Source of the DNA: Butyrivibrio sp.
GTDB taxonomy: Bacteria > Bacillota > Clostridia > Lachnospirales > Lachnospiraceae
DNA: 64,000 nucleotides
Assembly: GCA_017470505.1 (NCBI GenBank)
Contig: JAFUYO010000010.1
Coordinates: forward strand, 17,608-81,607
Reading direction: 5' to 3'
Shown here: positions 6,984-31,186 of the stretch, piece after piece
Numbering within the stretch: position 1 is the first letter of the stretch
Layout: each line of letters opens with the position of its first letter
Position numbers and translations under genes: made by a program
Notes under the pieces: generated by a model
Database searches by the model: none
What the model was told of the DNA's origin: nothing
Seen by the model: only the letters and a program-made list of their open reading frames with translations

Positions 6984-8804
6984 TTATCTCCTGACTATTA
7001 CAACCTTGGGCGACTTGACTTTGAGAAGGTAGAGCGTGTCATTTAACTTTGTGAGATCACCGCCGTAGCAGTTGCCCAGAACGCCCTCATTTGCCCTCAC
7101 AAAATAGTAAGCCGTATCAATAAGCCCCTGATTTTCAAGTGTCACGGAATTATAGTCGTATTTAAGTTCAGGTATCAGATTGACATATCTCTGAACTGCG
7201 CCGCCCATGCCGGAACCCGTGAGATTGCGTATCTGGCCCTTGGATGATTCGTCGAGCCAGGTCATGTATTCATCGAGCCTTTTGCTGTACTTCTCCCAGC
7301 CGAGCTCCGCACCTCTGTCCTCATCGAGGAGGTCATCGGGATGCATGAAGTGGCTGCTCACATAGTGGAAATTGAGCTCGGAGAAAGCCGCCAGCGTCAT
7401 ATAGTCGTCTATGATGCCTCCCGATACTATTCTCGGCGTCTCAACTATGCCGTCATCAGCCACGGTAAACTCCTGAAAGTACTCGTCAACTCCGTGAAAA
7501 TAAATACTTGCGATGGCCTTGATGTCACTGCTGCTGCCAAGTATGGCCCTGCCCTCCATCGACAATACATCTGATGGCGGAACATACACCGCAAATTCCT
7601 GATTCGGGAAGATGCTCTTTGAAAATCTCGAAAGCTCCGTAATAGCCTCACTTATCTTCTCATTGCTCTCCCAGGTCTTGTAGCCGAGGTCCTCGTGATA
7701 CATAAAATCCGGGCCGCATAGCGGCTGGTGGTTGTATCCGTGAAAGCCCAGCTCTCCTCCCTTATTCAGCAGCATATTTCCAAAGTAGTAATAATCTGCC
7801 GTGCTGTCATTTGGCGGGAGCTCTCCGTAGGTCTTATCTTCATAGTTTTCGATGATAAGACCCGTGTACCTGATCCCGTGCTTATCACCGAGCTTAAGTA
7901 CGTCAGGCCACCACACCGATGAGTAGAAATCAGCGATTCCCATCCCGTAGTCGCGCATTATGTACTCGCCGTTTCCGCTCGGAACGGGTGACGGAAAGTC
8001 GTCCAGGTAATAGGTCGAGGCATTTATGACGGGGTACGCAAAGATATCGTCAAGAAGCGTATAGCTGCTTGCAAATATCCCACGGTAGGCCTTCTCTGCG
8101 TACCCGAAATTACAGACAACGAATCTCCCTTCCTTGTAGTTTCGCTGCCATATAAGAGGAAGATTTTTTTCGGCTGTGTGGGCAACGACCTTGCACTGAT
8201 CATCGAGTTCAACTACAAGCGATGATTCATACGGGTCAGTTATCACGTAGGCCTGCTGCGCCCCAAGCATAAAGCCGGGGTCCGATACAAATGAGGCAAC
8301 CTCTCCAAAGTCGTACTGCGAGCTTATGATCCCCATCTTGCCCGCGATGTAGTCAAAGTACTCCGACTTATCAGGTGTCATCCCCAGCAGCATTCTGCCG
8401 CCCTCTCCGACCCAGGAGGATATGTCAAAGATCTTTTCTTCGAACACATCATAATTCCCTATCACAAACACGGCGGATTCATATCTGCCGAGCATAATAT
8501 CAAATCCTTTTATACCTTCACTCCCGACATCGTAGGAGTCGAAGGGGACGCGCATATCCTTCAGCACCTGGTCATAGATTTCCATCGCGTGAAAAGAGTT
8601 ATCTTCACCGGAGTCATATACCATGAGGCAGGTTTTTTCCCGCCTGCTCTTTTTGACATTCATCACCTGGTCGGGCGGAAGAAGGCTTACTGTCTCACTT
8701 CTCTTCTCATAGCTTATGCCCATGCTCTCCAGAAAAAGAACCACGAACATTCCGACAAAGCCCAGGACAACCCTGATGAGCGCGGCAAATCTCCTTTTCT
8801 TCAT
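6984..8804 (-). CDS. pelA: PelA-like membrane-anchored polysaccharide deacetylase (DUF2194 type)
   Basis: The protein has 606 residues with one N-terminal membrane helix (about residues 8-27) and an extracellular part. The first 240 residues look like a Rossmann-type (DUF2194-like) module. The rest is a carbohydrate esterase: ASTYYLDDFPSP carries the paired Asp (about residues 268-269), and LGFHGYNHQP carries the two His (about 355 and 359) that would bind metal in a CE4-like site. Gram-positive Pel operons encode a deacetylase-only PelA, lacking the hydrolase domain of the Pseudomonas protein, and this fits. It overlaps pelE by 4 bp. Deacetylation would add positive charge to the GalNAc/GlcNAc polymer. 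Confidence 0.82.
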   Translation of the reverse strand: MKKRRFAALIRVVLGFVGMFVVLFLESMGISYEKRSETVSLLPPDQVMNVKKSRREKTCLMVYDSGEDNSFHAMEIYDQVLKDMRVPFDSYDVGSEGIKGFDIMLGRYESAVFVIGNYDVFEEKIFDISSWVGEGGRMLLGMTPDKSEYFDYIAGKMGIISSQYDFGEVASFVSDPGFMLGAQQAYVITDPYESSLVVELDDQCKVVAHTAEKNLPLIWQRNYKEGRFVVCNFGYAEKAYRGIFASSYTLLDDIFAYPVINASTYYLDDFPSPVPSGNGEYIMRDYGMGIADFYSSVWWPDVLKLGDKHGIRYTGLIIENYEDKTYGELPPNDSTADYYYFGNMLLNKGGELGFHGYNHQPLCGPDFMYHEDLGYKTWESNEKISEAITELSRFSKSIFPNQEFAVYVPPSDVLSMEGRAILGSSSDIKAIASIYFHGVDEYFQEFTVADDGIVETPRIVSGGIIDDYMTLAAFSELNFHYVSSHFMHPDDLLDEDRGAELGWEKYSKRLDEYMTWLDESSKGQIRNLTGSGMGGAVQRYVNLIPELKYDYNSVTLENQGLIDTAYYFVRANEGVLGNCYGGDLTKLNDTLYLLKVKSPKVVIVRR

Positions 8805-9700
8805 GCCGGTGCCTCCCCGCTCTCAGGCTCCCAGAAGTCCATTATCTGCCTCATGCTCCTCGATATGTACTCGCCGCTCCTCTTTTTGCTCCTGATCATC
8901 TCTTTGGCCTTGTCGCCGGCGCCGCTCTCAACATAGTACCTGAATCTGAGGGGCCAGTTTCTCTCATCGTCAGGCCATCTTGCTTCCATTGCAGAAAGAG
9001 CCGCATCTGCCCTTGTCAGCTGCCCCGAGGCAAAAAAGCTCTTTACCAGTCTCTCGTAGTCGTCTATATTGGGATTTTTCGTGACCTTTTCTATCAGCAT
9101 CTGCTCATAGGTACTTCTCTGGATTTCAAGGAGCTGCCCCTGGATCATTCCGCTTGATATGTACTGCTCAAGGAAATCCGTGTATTCATCAAGGAGCCCT
9201 TCCCTACCTGGGTTTTGTGCATATTCCGCGCTGTACTCCTGCAGCTTTAAATCGTACTCCTTGGACAGCTCGACCATAGCCGTTGTCGCATAGTGTACAA
9301 CCTCAACGTCGTCGTTCATCCTTGCCTGGTTTATGACCGGCATGTAACCGTGCGCGTCGCTCATGAGAACGTCCATCATGACAGACCTTCTGACAGACGC
9401 CTCGTTCATGATAAGGGCATCCTCCAAAGGCACGATGTTGTCTGACTCAGCAGCCTGGATCGGAAGCTCCGATGAACCCTGAATATTGCCTTTGAGGCTC
9501 TCAAGGTCCTCATTTTTAACGCCTGTTTTCCCTCTGTTTATCAGGAAAGTAATGAGAAACGCACAGATAACACCCCAGAGGGGAATGAGGCCAACAAGAA
9601 TGAACATCGGCTCATCTATCTTGAGATACCCAAGTCCCGTTAAGACGTACACCAACATCACTATTAAGATATGGAAGATCAAAATAAAAAAATAAATCAT
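8801..9700 (-). CDS. pelE: PelE-like membrane protein with helical repeats
   Basis: At 299 residues this protein has two N-terminal membrane helices (about residues 2-20 and 30-50), then a cytoplasmic, all-helical region to the end. Segments such as YERLVKSFFASGQLTRADAA and RWPDDERNWPLRFRYYVESG look like TPR-type repeats. In Pseudomonas, PelE has the same layout and binds PelD and PelG in the synthase complex. It overlaps pelD by 4 bp and the deacetylase gene by 4 bp. Sequence conservation in this family is low, so the call rests on architecture and position. Confidence 0.8.
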   Translation of the reverse strand: MIYFFILIFHILIVMLVYVLTGLGYLKIDEPMFILVGLIPLWGVICAFLITFLINRGKTGVKNEDLESLKGNIQGSSELPIQAAESDNIVPLEDALIMNEASVRRSVMMDVLMSDAHGYMPVINQARMNDDVEVVHYATTAMVELSKEYDLKLQEYSAEYAQNPGREGLLDEYTDFLEQYISSGMIQGQLLEIQRSTYEQMLIEKVTKNPNIDDYERLVKSFFASGQLTRADAALSAMEARWPDDERNWPLRFRYYVESGAGDKAKEMIRSKKRSGEYISRSMRQIMDFWEPESGEAPA

Positions 9701-26161: not shown

Positions 26162-26359
26162 TTACTGTTGAAATATGTATTTCTCTCTTTTCAACAGTAA
26201 TTCTGCAGTGCTACTTACTGTTGAAATATGCATTTCTCACTTTTCAACAGTAATTCCACACAGCTACGTACTGTTGAAATATGTATTTGTCACTTTTCAA
26301 CAGTAATTCCACACAGCTACGTACTGTTAGAATATGCATTTCTCACTTTTCAACAGTAA
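26162..26359. repeat. Left palindromic repeat array, 4 units, 53-bp period
   Basis: Units begin at 26162, 26215, 26268 and 26321, so the period is exactly 53 bp. Each is a hairpin of 39 nt, with arms close to ttactgttgaaa and tttcaacagtaa around a loop such as tatgtatttctcac. A 14-bp spacer (ttccacacagctac in two of three) follows. A degenerate fifth copy may precede at about 26105. The same arms and period recur at 27616-28200, on the other side of the single gene between them. Confidence 0.9.
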
Positions 26360-26725
26360 ACAATTGCATGCATATCTGACACATGCTAATGCCTTAGCAA
26401 TAACTATCATACTACCTACCAGACAACTCACTCAACAACTATAATGTAGGCCTTATCAGAAACTGCTTTGTTGCTGTCCGATTCCAGACCAGTAACATGC
26501 AATTTGGGCATCATAATCGCATCGAGGTGGCCCAAATTGCATACTGAATCATTTTCTTACTCAGCCAGCAGCGTAGTGCCGGCTGCTGACTGATTAGTAA
26601 TGCTGTTTTCAACATTAAAGAAATGTATCAGCCCCAAAGATATCTGAATATTTCGAATATTCATAACAATCTAATTATTCTATATAGTTCGAACAATCTG
26701 AACATAAACCACAAAACTACGCTTG
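26360..26725. other. Gene-free segment with three hairpins
   Basis: Between the left array and the nuclease-like gene there are three separate inverted repeats. One is a perfect 13-bp stem (26497-26509 with 26530-26542, 20-nt loop). One is an 11-12 bp stem with one mismatch (26562-26572 with 26582-26592, 9-nt loop). One is a perfect 8-bp stem (26645-26652 with 26656-26663, 3-nt loop). None is followed by a T tract on the minus strand, so they are not classical terminators. I see no ORF here. Confidence 0.7.
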
Positions 26726-27529
26726 TTATAATAAGTACTCCCTGATATACTGTTCTGCCACCGACGTATTCAGTGCGTAAGAAGACGATTCATACGTAAC
26801 AATAAGACGCCGCCCGGGAATGATGTTATTTTTGATGTATTGATCAATCTTTCTTATTGCTTTTTCCACATACTCAGGGTCTCCCATTCTTCCGTCATGC
26901 TCCCAATATATTTCTTCATATGTCTTTTTACTCAAAAATGTGAAGTCCGGATAAACAATACCATATCCCTTAAGGTGCAACGGGCACTCGTACTTATATT
27001 CAATTCCGTAATCATAAAACATATCTGCCAGAATCTTTTCAGATTTAGATCTTACACGCTCTCCCTTCTTGGTGTAAATCTCAACTTGTCCTTCTTTAAA
27101 TTCTTTACCATTATAAGGAGTTGCTTTCCACAGGGCTAGCCTTTGCTCCCAGGTCTCTTCTACAGGGTTAACAAGTCCCCTTCTTATCTGATGAAGTCCT
27201 AAATATATCTCTTCGATCTCGTCATCCTCATATTCTTTGATCAGCCTATCGAATTGCCCGCACCTTTTGTCTACAATCTTTTTAACTTTTTGATCATAGT
27301 TTTTTTGAGCCAATTGCCTGACCATTGGAAGGTCATCTTTCCTGATATATCTAAGCTTACCACCGGATTTATCGCTATTTTCAACACAACGAACATACTG
27401 AACTTTGTTATTAGACGTAGTAATCCTGAGTGTTCCCTGCGGAACATCTGTGAGCCGCTCATCAACAATTGTTTTAATTCTCTTTAATCTTTTCTCTTCT
27501 TCGAGTAGTAGTCCTTTTAATCCATACAT
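26726..27529 (-). CDS. PD-(D/E)XK-like nuclease-fold protein between two repeat arrays
   Basis: The 267-residue protein has a charged, helical N-terminal half (residues 1-115) and a C-terminal domain that looks like a restriction-endonuclease fold. Visible elements are RVRSKSEKILADMFYDYG (Glu164), IVYPDFTFLS (Asp195) and EIYWEHDGR (Glu210, then His211 in place of the usual Lys position). I recall similar YWEH-type C-termini in uncharacterised clostridial proteins. Base composition is lower in GC than the flanking genes. A ggagg site lies 13 bp before the ATG. The right array begins 87 bp upstream and the left array ends 366 bp downstream, so the gene and repeats may form one unit. Catalysis is not proven. 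Confidence 0.7.
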   Translation of the reverse strand: MYGLKGLLLEEEKRLKRIKTIVDERLTDVPQGTLRITTSNNKVQYVRCVENSDKSGGKLRYIRKDDLPMVRQLAQKNYDQKVKKIVDKRCGQFDRLIKEYEDDEIEEIYLGLHQIRRGLVNPVEETWEQRLALWKATPYNGKEFKEGQVEIYTKKGERVRSKSEKILADMFYDYGIEYKYECPLHLKGYGIVYPDFTFLSKKTYEEIYWEHDGRMGDPEYVEKAIRKIDQYIKNNIIPGRRLIVTYESSSYALNTSVAEQYIREYLL

Positions 27530-27615: not shown

Positions 27616-28200
27616 TTACTGTTTCAATCTTAATTTCTACTATCTTAATTTCTACTATTTTCAACAGTAACGCTATCAAAGAGCGTACTGTTAAATTCTA
27701 CATATTTACAATTCCAACAGTAACGCCTACCTGAGACTTACTGTTGAAATCAATGAATTCTCAATTTCAACAGTAACGCCACCTTGAGACTTACTTCTGG
27801 ATTCTGATAATTCCAATTTTCAACAGTAGCAACACCCTGAGACTTACTGTTAAAATCTACGAATTCTCAATTTCAACAGTAGCGCCACCTTGAGACTTAC
27901 TGTTGGATTCTGCAAATTCCAAATTCCAACAGTAGCGACCCCCTGGGACTTACTGTTGATATTTACGAATCCTCAATTTCAACAGTAACACTACCACGAA
28001 TCTTACTGTTGGATTCTAATAATTCCAAATTCCAACAGTAGCGACCCCCTGGGACTTACTGTTGATATTTACGAATCCTCAATTCCAACAGTAACACCAC
28101 CACGAATCTTACTGTTGAAATCTACGAATTCTCTATTTCACCAGTAACACCATCACGAATCTTTCTGTTGAAATCCACGAATTCTCAATTCCAACAGTAA
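27616..28200. repeat. Right palindromic repeat array, 11 units, 53-bp period
   Basis: Units start at 27616, 27685 and then every 53 bp at 27738, 27791, 27844, 27897, 27950, 28003, 28056, 28109 and 28162. The first unit is 69 bp long because a 16-bp piece is duplicated. Each unit is a 39-nt hairpin (13-nt arms, 13-nt loop, often with gaattc in the loop) followed by a 14-bp spacer. Two variants, with arms starting ttactgttgaaat or ttactgttggatt, partly alternate. The array fills the space between the nuclease-like gene and the comEC stop codon. Confidence 0.93.
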
Positions 28201-28237
28201 CCTCGTCTCGAACATTGGCGCTGCTGCCTGTTATGTC

Positions 28238-31186
28238 CTACTTATCATCGAGATACTCCTCCACTTTTAGCGTATCGCCGCCATCTAGGACCTCCACTGT
28301 AATTGCTCCGCCCAAATCCGTGCGGTACACTCTTGCTCCGACGCTCTCAAGGCGCTCTAATACTTCCTCGTGGGGATGGCCGTAGGTATTGTTTCGTCCG
28401 CAGGAAACAAGAGCCACCCTGGGAGTTATCATCGCAAGAAACTCTTCGTCCGTCGTGTAGCGGGAGCCGTGATGCGCGACCTTGAGAAGCGAGAGATTTC
28501 CATATACATCAGGGTTTGCAGCGATTATATCCCGGATGTCCTCCTGCCCTTCTCCTTCCACATCCCCTGTGAAAAGAGCCGTGAACCTTCCGTACTTCAT
28601 AAACAAAACGGTGGAATACTCATTTGCACCATCTGTCTTCATGTTCAGCACAGGATTGAGGCAGGTAAATTCGGCCTTTCCAACATTAAACCTCTCCCCT
28701 CTATTGATGTAGGATATCGGAATTCCAAGGTCATTAGCTCTACCAGCAAGCTTTTGGTAGTTGTTTCCTCTGCTCGATGCGTCAACCTCAGGAAGTATCA
28801 GCTCGTCAACCCATATTCCGCCCTTCTCCATGTCATCGAGCACGTCCATAATTCCGCTTAAGTGGTCCTCATCCTCATGCGTCAGAATAATTGCTCTCAG
28901 TCTCCCAATCCCCTTATACTTTAAAAAAGGGATTATCTGGTACCTGCCAACATTCTTCTTACTCGTGCTGCCTCCGTCGATCATGATATTGCTTCTGCCG
29001 CTCGATATCACAATTCCGTCACCCTGGCCCACATCTATCATGTTGATCTCCATCTGCGGCTTTATGTGAAACGTAAGAATAAATACAGCTACGAGCAGTA
29101 TCACTATCCGCAACAAGCGGAAATCTCTTCTTCCTCCGTAAAATACGGCACTAACCGGCATCTCATTTACTGAGTTAAAATAAGCAGGCTCTGTCCTGCC
29201 GTCCGAAGCAATCTCACTTCCTCTCTTGACATCAAGACATCCAATATCTTTGGCCTCAGGATGTTTGGAGCCTTCACTTCTCTGACTATCAGCCTCTTCA
29301 TCTCTGTTTCCAGAGCCAACCGAGAATAAGACAAATGCTCCCATAAGCATCAGATACGCAAGGACCTGCCATTTCTCAGAATGCCCCAGGAACCATGTCA
29401 TATTGCGTGTAATTAATGCAGATGAGCATAGAGCCCTGTAAAGCCACAATATGAGATGCACAGGAAGACCGAGAAGATGGATAGCTTCTTCCGCCGCCAT
29501 CCCTCTCTCGCTCAAAGCACTGCCAACCTGTATAGCAGAGGTACCAAATGAAGCTGCTGATGCTTTGCCCAAAACTCCTCTATCCTGAAGCAACAGCGAT
29601 GAAGTCGCTATTGCTGTAGCAGATGAAGGAAATATTCCTCCCCCCGCCACTGCAGATATAACACTTCCTGCGACCATGGTCCCGATCCCTGCGATCATCA
29701 GAATCCCCATAAGTGGTATCACCACCAGATTTAAGAAGATGGAATGTACGGGGTATGTGTAGTAATAAAGACTGTAGACAGGAAGCGTCGAAAGGGCTAT
29801 GCCAGCGCCTGAGGTTAGCCCCGACAGCAGCGCTCCGATAATCTTCTGTAGCATCGTTGTCTTATCGTCAACGAACCTCATCCTGAACGGATCATCTGCT
29901 GCAGCTTCTGATGGCGGGATAAGTCCGCGGTCTGCCAGAAACCTTTCAAGCCCGGTGATATGAAGGTGCGGCGCGATAACCGACGCCCCGATCACAGCCC
30001 CAAAGGAGAACAGGAACCCGCTGTTATAAAGGTACAGCGGCTGATCCAGCAAAAGAAGCATCTCCGAAAAAGCCAGCGCCGAAAGAAGGTCGTAGGTCCT
30101 CCCAAATAGGGGCGCCATAATCCTTAGGACAAACATGCAGATTGCCCTGAAAGAGGACGAGCTCATTCCGCACATAACTCCGTAGGAGTACATGAAAAGA
30201 ACGGATATCAAAACAGGCACAGATCTGTATATTAATGCCATTAGTATCTTCTTTGATCCCTGTTCCTGCTTCTTTCTGTATCTTCCTTTCCCCGCAGCAG
30301 CTGTTTCCAATTTACCACTCCTCAATCTGATCCGTGAAATAAAGTCTGCTGCCCTGTCCATAAGCCTTCGTAAAAGCTCATATATCCCCATACCTATGAT
30401 AGATATGTGAAGCCCCGAGACCGCCAGTATATGCATTATTCCCCCGGCCATGTACAGGTCCCTGGTCTCTGCGTCCATGAAGGCTTTGTCACCGAGGAGC
30501 ATCGCCTTCATGACGCCGGAATCGTCCTCATTAAGGACAACGTCCAAAGCTCCTTCCAAAAACAGTCTGAGCCTGAAAAGGCTCTCTTTATAGGGGCTCT
30601 TGCTTCCGCCCCTTTTTGTGATGTTGCAATCACTCAACCTGTATGAAATTTTTAATGTCTGATAATAAAGACGACTGTCAAACTCCCCGGGATTTGTCGG
30701 AGACAAAAAATTCCTGACCCTGCCGTGTATTTCCACATATTCGCCGGTTGACGGAAGGCCAACTGAGGATGACGCTGTGCTGCGATATCCCATTACAGGA
30801 AAGTCGGCTGCAGATGACGCTGTGCTGCGGTATCCCATTGCAGGAAAGTCCGCTGCGGATGATGCTGTGCTGCGATATCCAGTTACAGAAATAGCTGCAA
30901 CCGATGGCGCTATGCTGCTCTCTCCCACATCATCATCCTGCTCCTTAATATAGCACTGCACCATCTCCGAATCCGCTTTTGCATCTGTCGGCGCAATGTA
31001 GATAACTGGCACAAAGCCTCCATCATAGCTCTTTTTGAATTCTTTGTCCTCTACCGTTCCTACGATGGTAACCTCTTCACCGTCGGAATACTCATATAAA
31101 CTACTATCCAGGGGATTATTTATTTCAAGAAACACAAAGACAGCCGCCGTCAAAAGAATTGCCAAAAGGCATAACGGCCTCTTCAT
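28238..31186 (-). CDS. comEC: ComEC/Rec2 DNA-uptake channel protein
   Basis: ComEC carries single-stranded DNA across the membrane in competent cells. The 982 residues include a signal-like start, an OB-fold region (EEVTIVGTVEDKEF to YVEIHGRVRNF), the competence membrane domain (LLGDKAFMDAETRDLYMAGG, HILAVSGLHISIIG) and a C-terminal metallo-beta-lactamase-like domain (INMIDVGQGDGIVIS, LTHEDEDHLSG). The zinc-site motif is THEDEDH rather than HxHxDH, as is common in ComEC. It is longer than the usual about 750-800 residues because of a repeated insert in the OB-fold and a long linker (about 640-700) after the membrane part. It is last in the comEA operon. Confidence 0.93.
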   Translation of the reverse strand: MKRPLCLLAILLTAAVFVFLEINNPLDSSLYEYSDGEEVTIVGTVEDKEFKKSYDGGFVPVIYIAPTDAKADSEMVQCYIKEQDDDVGESSIAPSVAAISVTGYRSTASSAADFPAMGYRSTASSAADFPVMGYRSTASSSVGLPSTGEYVEIHGRVRNFLSPTNPGEFDSRLYYQTLKISYRLSDCNITKRGGSKSPYKESLFRLRLFLEGALDVVLNEDDSGVMKAMLLGDKAFMDAETRDLYMAGGIMHILAVSGLHISIIGMGIYELLRRLMDRAADFISRIRLRSGKLETAAAGKGRYRKKQEQGSKKILMALIYRSVPVLISVLFMYSYGVMCGMSSSSFRAICMFVLRIMAPLFGRTYDLLSALAFSEMLLLLDQPLYLYNSGFLFSFGAVIGASVIAPHLHITGLERFLADRGLIPPSEAAADDPFRMRFVDDKTTMLQKIIGALLSGLTSGAGIALSTLPVYSLYYYTYPVHSIFLNLVVIPLMGILMIAGIGTMVAGSVISAVAGGGIFPSSATAIATSSLLLQDRGVLGKASAASFGTSAIQVGSALSERGMAAEEAIHLLGLPVHLILWLYRALCSSALITRNMTWFLGHSEKWQVLAYLMLMGAFVLFSVGSGNRDEEADSQRSEGSKHPEAKDIGCLDVKRGSEIASDGRTEPAYFNSVNEMPVSAVFYGGRRDFRLLRIVILLVAVFILTFHIKPQMEINMIDVGQGDGIVISSGRSNIMIDGGSTSKKNVGRYQIIPFLKYKGIGRLRAIILTHEDEDHLSGIMDVLDDMEKGGIWVDELILPEVDASSRGNNYQKLAGRANDLGIPISYINRGERFNVGKAEFTCLNPVLNMKTDGANEYSTVLFMKYGRFTALFTGDVEGEGQEDIRDIIAANPDVYGNLSLLKVAHHGSRYTTDEEFLAMITPRVALVSCGRNNTYGHPHEEVLERLESVGARVYRTDLGGAITVEVLDGGDTLKVEEYLDDK
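30765..30899. repeat. Three tandem 45-bp repeats inside comEC
   Basis: Imperfect 45-bp units start at 30765, 30810 and 30855. They encode three copies of a 15-residue unit close to GYRSTASSAADFPAM within the N-terminal OB-fold region of ComEC. The repeats keep the reading frame. The insert is Ser/Ala-rich and probably a flexible loop. Confidence 0.85.

Follow-up and report, generated by a model that had tools for sequence, protein, structure and literature searches.

A nuclease-like protein family of Lachnospiraceae and its helically phased palindromic arrays

The window, a stretch of 64,000 nucleotides of a Butyrivibrio genome analyzed here, carries a gene for a 267-residue nuclease-like protein and an array of palindromic repeats upstream of it. 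Comparison of related loci revealed a strong linkage between the repeat and the gene family. The palindrome word differs between loci and tracks the relatedness of the proteins, array periods are a whole number of helical turns, further arrays with a genome's own word are found in trans, and units are gained or lost between relatives. The explanation that we favor, and consider rather probable, is a PD-(D/E)XK-type protein with cognate double-stranded tandem sites which would be REPtron-like in its action. That protein and sites form a cognate pair is highly probable; that nuclease activity spreads and maintains the arrays has about an even chance. This protein-DNA partnership of bacteria from gut and rumen is real, widespread and apparently undescribed; from it we infer a molecular action that comprises binding, cutting and mobilization of the arrays by the protein.

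Results

The array in the window had been predicted as eleven 53-bp units, and a half-site scan indeed detected the motif TACTGTTGRAAW 11 times in forward and 11 times in reverse orientation at 27617..28199, 5' of the gene, with ten units in strict register. The reverse half-sites are located at 27662 + n × 53 up to 28192 (n = 11) and the forward half-sites in register at 27686 + n × 53 up to 28163 (n = 10). The eleventh forward half-site at 27617 has one mismatch and is out of register; between it and its partner, within the first unit, a 15-bp stretch is duplicated in tandem (27627..27658). The motif was derived from 121 half-sites of the window genome, which alternate in orientation with start-to-start steps mostly of 29 and 24 bp. 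Tandem Repeats Finder (TRF), proposed as a check in the original prediction, recovered the period of 53 bp (27686-28201, 9.8 copies, 74% matches). The fit improved with a doubled period of 106 bp (83%). Thus, neighboring units alternate. The measured layout of the unit is an arm of 12 bp, 13 bp, an arm of 12 bp and 16 bp, which corresponds to the predicted 39-nt hairpin plus 14-bp spacer.

As described originally, this array occupies the gap between the 267-aa gene (26726..27529, minus strand) and comEC (28238..31186, minus strand; NCBIfam ComEC_Rec2), which lies upstream of the cassette. The 5' part of comEC itself contains 45-bp tandem repeats (2.7 copies, 30763-30927) which encode a repeated peptide. 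The prediction found the array but missed the genomic copies elsewhere and a second array at about 26163..26358, on the other side of the gene (3'), with four units of the same 53-bp unit (TRF 3.7 copies). Whole units are repeated including their spacers, with 74% matches in the upstream array of the window and 90% in the second. The claimed conservation of the spacers stands inside one array but hardly from array to array. Two strong inverted repeats of a sequence different from that of the array (26498-26539 and 26560-26592) separate the stop codon of the gene from the second array.

The protein encoded by the window gene gave no Pfam match below E 0.25, nothing in NCBIfam up to E 10 and no convincing PDB relative in a sequence search. 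In an alignment of 77 relatives, no Pfam family among the weak matches listed reached more than 4 members. The C-terminal ~115 residues match PDC-S68, a PADLOC candidate (E 2.1e-24), and give a weak match to a PD-(D/E)XK model; this nuclease-like domain comprises residues 151-264 (26738..27079, minus strand). PDC-S68 was matched by 77/77 relatives and the HEAT_CxxC_PDDEXK model by 34/77. The residues R160, S161, K162, E164, D195, F196, E210, H211 and G213 are invariant in 161/161 relatives. They include the conserved acidic catalytic-type residues of the PD-(D/E)XK superfamily (E164, D195, E210), and the position of the usual lysine reads WEHxG in the alignment, judged by eye. The best reading of these features is that the protein is probably of the PD-(D/E)XK type.

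In order to investigate the linkage of gene and array, loci were selected by protein match and never by repeats. A profile of the inverted-repeat word score was calculated for 79 loci, obtained from the best 80 of 115 relatives and read in the direction of the gene. The average was 3.80 in the first 500 bp upstream, a bin present in 70/79 loci; the 22 remaining bins that hold more than one locus gave averages of 1.17-1.59. The TRF survey took in divergent relatives as well (about 35% identity) and comprised 169 loci, some of them reached twice, of which 7 with less than 300 bp upstream were set aside. In the remaining 162 loci an array ended within 500 bp upstream in 102 cases and started within 500 bp downstream in 12. 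The array end is separated from the start codon by a median of 107 bp. The outer flanks contained 38 arrays per 863.6 kb and the upstream stretches total 79.7 kb, which corresponds to an upstream array density ~29-fold above the outer flanks. When the TRF and word tests were combined for 154 loci, both were positive in 53, TRF only in 44, the word only in 15 and neither in 42. These 42 loci without array or word upstream count against our preferred explanation.

Arms of at least 7 bp were found in 48/98 arrays compared to 5.1 in shuffles. The consensus of 31/98 TRF arrays contained no exact inverted repeat of at least 6 bp; long arrays are among these (L095 with 8.7 copies, L127 with 10.9), and of nine inspected by us one showed an imperfect palindrome of 10 bp. 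These arrays, too, speak against the preferred explanation. The upstream arrays of L095, L113, L127 and L154 keep the 53/54-bp period with a consensus that lacks a palindrome, so that spacing seems to be more constant there than the inverted repeat. Unit identity reaches up to 98% in arrays of relatives, for example in L095 (TRF). At one locus of genome G258 (L153) long same-word arrays flank the gene on both sides, with more than 20 units in total.

The spacing was analyzed for 98 distinct upstream periods, obtained after removal of 4 arrays with identical upstream sequence. They cluster at 52-55, 61-64, 70-75 and 94-95 bp, and downstream arrays include periods of 85 and 86 bp. For the 35 periods above 55 bp the Rayleigh length was 0.72 at 10-11 bp, a value reached in 0/3000 uniform draws. 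In a set of 98 periods from 97 distinct-protein loci and the window, with 104 and 108 bp counted as doubles, 93% lay within 1.6 bp of n × 10.55 bp (uniform expectation 30%); the value of 10.55 was chosen near the helical repeat, and free fits gave 10.35-10.85. Among the periods which are not of five turns, 31/36 were likewise at most 1.6 bp away from whole turns. On the protein tree the turn class switches 13 times. Consequently, the spacing is not one inherited length, although the correction of these tests for kinship is incomplete. Two loci which both adjoin guaA (L179 and L182) have identical arms and the same 23-bp loop, and their spacers of 38 and 27 bp are one turn apart.

A strong word was present upstream in 69/155 loci, with 52 distinct words, and in 6/156 cases in a downstream control at the same cut-off. 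The best six-letter word was common to 10/10 protein pairs above 85% identity, to 11/23 pairs at 70-85%, 21/145 at 60-70%, 10/277 at 50-60%, 2/418 at 40-50% and 14/1473 below 40%. For pairs at 58-86% identity, word sharing was predicted by the similarity of residues 21-70 with an AUC of 0.91, compared to 0.36 for residues 201-260 (10/1796 permutations as extreme). A less strict cut-off for the word gave 0.79 and 0.43, respectively (13/1996 permutations). After removal of the CTGTTG group, in which case 8/87 pairs share a word, AUCs of 0.70 (21-70), 0.73 (81-140) and 0.60 (201-260) were obtained. As the N-terminal signal is weak when the CTGTTG loci are left out, we take residues 21-70 (27320..27469, minus strand), where local similarity tracks word sharing, as a pointer to a candidate DNA-reading part at residues ~20-70.

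The strict palindrome pattern was found at 39 places in the window genome and at 0 in the read-backwards control. These places form the two window clusters, four other arrays (contigs C25, C28, C38 and C39) and single units on C10 and C47; the six sites away from the window are orphans on contigs without a relative of the protein. Units on C10, C25 and C38 (reversed) resemble the 26163 array by eye through the loop as well, which points to copying. From the hits listed for other Butyrivibrio genomes, 20 orphan sites with the words CTGTTG or CTGCCTATA were picked by hand, leaving out hits at the gene and those looking like chance. They comprise 18 arrays and 2 single units, and a gene relative was found beside 0 of the 20 within ~3 kb on each side (less at contig ends).

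Three genera other than Butyrivibrio were represented by G298, G375 and G258. The cis word of G298 occurred at 12 places in its own genome and at 0 in 7 other genomes, that of G375 at 17 places and at 1 in 6 others, and that of G258 at 34 places and at 0 in 6 others; the read-backwards control of the G375 word gave 1 hit each in G375 and G278. Nine orphan sites were fetched from the three genomes, and the gene was present in 0/9 stretches. Orphans and cis arrays agree in their repeat step, which is 62 bp in G375 and does not deviate from 53 bp by more than 1 bp in G258 and G298. All three G375 sites are cut by a contig end; those on C73 and C128 probably represent opposite ends of a single array that has been split. 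In each of the three genomes the loops vary from array to array, whereas arms and period recur. Thus, the arrays share arms and period and not the whole unit. Most orphan sites (21/26) are located outside any ORF of at least 90 aa. Two genomes, G034 and G050 (L254, L257, L258), carry CTGTTG arrays with no close CTGTTG-type gene found in assemblies that are 85-86% complete, which may reflect gene loss or assembly gaps. Six others (G007, G009, G016, G026, G052, G066) contain 1-2 CTGCCTATA units with no visible partner gene, and in G026 no relative of the protein was found at all. Words lacking a visible partner gene count against the preferred explanation.

Relatives of the protein were detected in 69/79 Butyrivibrio genomes, with up to nine per genome, and in 98/299 genomes sampled across Lachnospiraceae with nearly one genus each. 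Among 398 genomes of the phylum (E 1e-20) full-length relatives were confined to Lachnospiraceae; two genomes of other families matched the C-terminal part alone, inside long frames. A gene borne by phages or plasmids was considered and rejected, as one IMG/VR scan gave no relative in viral contigs and a plasmid search gave no full-length relative. Three plasmid records matched the C-terminal part only (two annotated as AAA family ATPase, one as RecD-like helicase).

In the window genome, relatives are encoded on contigs C17, C16, C6 and C36. The C16 paralogue (L052, 325 aa) has two different upstream arrays with another word, one of 42-bp and one of 64-bp period (7936-8058 and 8585-8841); for the C6 paralogue (L148) no array was found. 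The C36 match (L306, 23582-23842 of that contig in the window genome, G000) is a short C-terminal piece in a 96-aa frame, perhaps a remnant.

The nearest upstream ORF was analyzed for 143 loci and was rlmD/rumA in 16, rpsI in 16 and guaA in 9; further upstream ORFs were rho (4), comEC (4), lysS (4) and tuf (3), with 86 clusters in all. One representative for each of these seven labels was checked by NCBIfam. Downstream ORFs (n = 165) fell into 129 clusters, the largest of 4. The addresses were mapped on a FastTree phylogeny of 161 distinct proteins with many weak branches; identical proteins were excluded, as were frames that contain stops or fall outside the range of 200-350 aa. The labelled rows required 10 address changes (minimum possible 6). 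All rows required 43 changes compared to a shuffled mean of 54.1, and 0/200 shuffles were as low. Tested singly, rumA, comEC, guaA and rho were clustered on the tree (0, 2, 6 and 15 of 500 shuffles as low, respectively), rpsI was less clustered (61/500), and lysS and tuf were not. We read this as addresses mostly inherited at the ends of housekeeping genes, together with a fast turnover of the word.

Array length was compared between close relatives. The cis arrays of L090 and L091 (97.7% identity over 959 bp) differ by exactly 108 bp, which corresponds to 2 units; this exact two-unit difference is consistent with the recent amplification that had been proposed for the window array. L109 reads N in the array region, which precludes a comparison of unit number with L096. 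For the single unit on C10 no empty site was obtained, as synteny was not kept in the 15 relatives examined. The array on C11 of G067 and ~620 bp of adjacent DNA are missing in G052, where a different sequence of ~500 bp takes their place; since the flank is missing and replaced, loss and gain of this array look alike. Thus, neither of these two comparisons gave a clean empty site, which also weighs against the preferred explanation.

Discussion

The system that we propose would consist of two parts: a PD-(D/E)XK-type protein encoded on the chromosome, and the site recognized by this protein, repeated in tandem arrays. A unit would be a pair of inverted half-sites, here of ~12 bp, and as units are whole helical turns apart all of them would face the same side of the double helix. 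The gene has one array immediately on its 5' side, and others that share word and period with it are dispersed, mostly through intergenic DNA. The half-sites would be recognized by protein dimers, possibly through residues ~20-70, and the dimers would line up along the array, where the conserved catalytic domain would nick or cut. Repair of the break could expand or contract the array and now and then seed a copy elsewhere. By such turnover and seeding, protein and sites would change their word together. The system would work like a REPtron, but with an unrelated enzyme and with phased sites in double-stranded DNA.

Among the roles originally suggested for the window array, that of a protein-binding array or a target of the adjacent protein gains from the linkage, the tracking of word and protein, the helical spacing and the trans word. 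It had also been argued that a unit scattered over the genome with no link to the gene would point to an ordinary intergenic repeat. The scatter was indeed observed, but not the absence of a link; as the link to the gene family is strong, an ordinary intergenic repeat does not follow. A more far-reaching version has somewhat less than an even chance: Lachnospiraceae might contain a second, HUH-independent class of repeat nuclease, in which a PD-(D/E)XK enzyme both writes and maintains phased palindromic tracts chromosome-wide. The protein would then set word and helical spacing in trans, and protein and sites would change their word together while the housekeeping address of the gene stays constant.

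Since the cis array lies mainly 5' of the gene and ends close to its start codon, an autoregulatory operator would suit the position too. By binding the upstream array the protein would regulate its own expression, the scattered arrays would be operators or decoys spread by ordinary recombination, and the nuclease domain would act elsewhere. Whole-turn spacing would likewise suit cooperative binding. Nevertheless, we consider this reading unlikely. Promoter-like pairs between array and gene showed no clear excess over shuffled sequence (27/73 vs 24.5 with at most 3 mismatches, 6 vs 3.8 with at most 2, 2 vs 0.2 with at most 1), and no promoter was found between array and gene in the window. Moreover, arrays of up to 15 copies and the many gene-less arrays exceed the needs of an operator.

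A further explanation is a nuclease restrained by its own sites, with the arrays as a DNA sponge for an enzyme that is harmful or defensive when free. The invariant catalytic-type residues and the match of the C-terminal domain to a PADLOC defence candidate speak for it. However, that PADLOC entry is itself a candidate, and a gene with largely inherited addresses, with no relative in the IMG/VR scan and none of full length in plasmids, is unlike the usual defence genes. We regard the sponge as quite improbable.

Far less credible still is an array transcribed as a multi-hairpin RNA, as had been suggested, or as a guide RNA used by the nuclease. The palindromic units adjoin a nuclease-like gene and in most loci would be transcribed from upstream in its direction. 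However, the two arm positions that vary, 8 and 11, showed no covariation: at position 8 (49 units) agreement was 0.51 compared to 0.45 in shuffles (p 0.23), and at position 11 it was below the shuffled value (0.29 vs 0.52). Loop position 14 alone, one of 16 positions tested, showed agreement above shuffled (p 0.001). The window gave 0 Rfam matches, and the arrays that lack a 6-bp palindrome also argue against hairpins. Missing arm covariation and whole-turn spacing favor double-stranded DNA sites, and the RNA reading was rejected. Finally, a partition, nucleoid or replication site bound by a protein whose nuclease activity is lost or incidental would explain phased protein-site arrays at several places per chromosome, but is likewise very improbable given the invariant catalytic-type residues, the different words of close species and paralogues, and the finding of no segregation gene beside the gene.

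The preferred reading, a nuclease-like protein with cognate phased sites, would have several consequences. A Pfam-less family with dozens of cognate words offers protein/site pairs for learning DNA recognition, and it may exemplify in nature how a binding protein and its numerous sites evolve rapidly together. Bacterial genomes would possibly gain interspersed repeats by a new route. Whole-turn quantization of the repeat length in natural arrays is unusual in itself. Searches of open-access journal articles gave no description of this pairing of protein and array.

Several known systems share single features with the one described here. Phased protein-binding repeats are known from iteron, centromere and multi-operator arrays; here, in contrast, the partner is nuclease-like, the arrays are found chromosome-wide and the word turns over between species. 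PDC-S68 shares the C-terminal nuclease-like domain, but models ~1,200 aa, and the match to the 267-aa protein covers the C-terminal ~115 residues; the N-terminal half of the protein has no counterpart there. Palindromic repeats at regular spacing next to a nuclease-like gene recall CRISPR, where unique spacers separate near-identical repeats. The original prediction set the array apart from CRISPR; here, spacers repeat within an array as well, the arms are short inverted half-sites at helical-turn spacing, and the word is shared by arrays elsewhere. With whole units repeated, spacers included, a CRISPR-like reading was rejected. An NCBIfam scan of two neighbors of the window gene gave comEC and an ORF with no match.

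The closest known kind, by analogy, is the REPtron, that is REP/BIME palindromes with TnpA-REP/RAYT. As described in the literature (PMC8266576, PMC8049555, PMC3686654, PMC3733652), a REPtron is a TnpA-REP gene with cognate REPs, inverted tandem units that are mostly intergenic. Its gene is vertically inherited and adjoins cognate repeats, copies of which are found elsewhere, and the repeat class follows the protein (same sources). The likeness to the arrays studied here therefore extends to the gene beside cognate repeats which also occur elsewhere in the genome, to the inverted, mostly intergenic tandem units and to a repeat class that follows the protein.

The REPtron enzyme, however, is of the HUH/Y1 type and the one here PD-(D/E)XK-like. 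The window protein gave no match to Y1_Tnp, which was also absent among the 25 listed of 41 weak Pfam families for 77 members. Similarly, 0 Y1_Tnp proteins were found in G036, G046, G050 and the window genome (84% complete), all four of which carry arrays; consequently, RAYT/IS200 was rejected as the mobilizer in the window genome. Y1 proteins are present in 60/79 Butyrivibrio genomes, and their involvement is possible in those. A conserved GTAG lies beside the palindrome in REPtrons, whereas positions -8 to -1 of the 121 half-sites of the window genome carry 0.09-0.75 bits and no GTAG. The arrays here are in addition helically phased, with long units, tens instead of hundreds of copies and several paralogues of the protein per genome. 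With neither an HUH enzyme nor GTAG, the system is not a member of the REPtrons. Its enzyme, its proposed recognition of phased double-stranded sites and its protein family all lie outside that kind, and our best reading is that it would nevertheless work like a REPtron.
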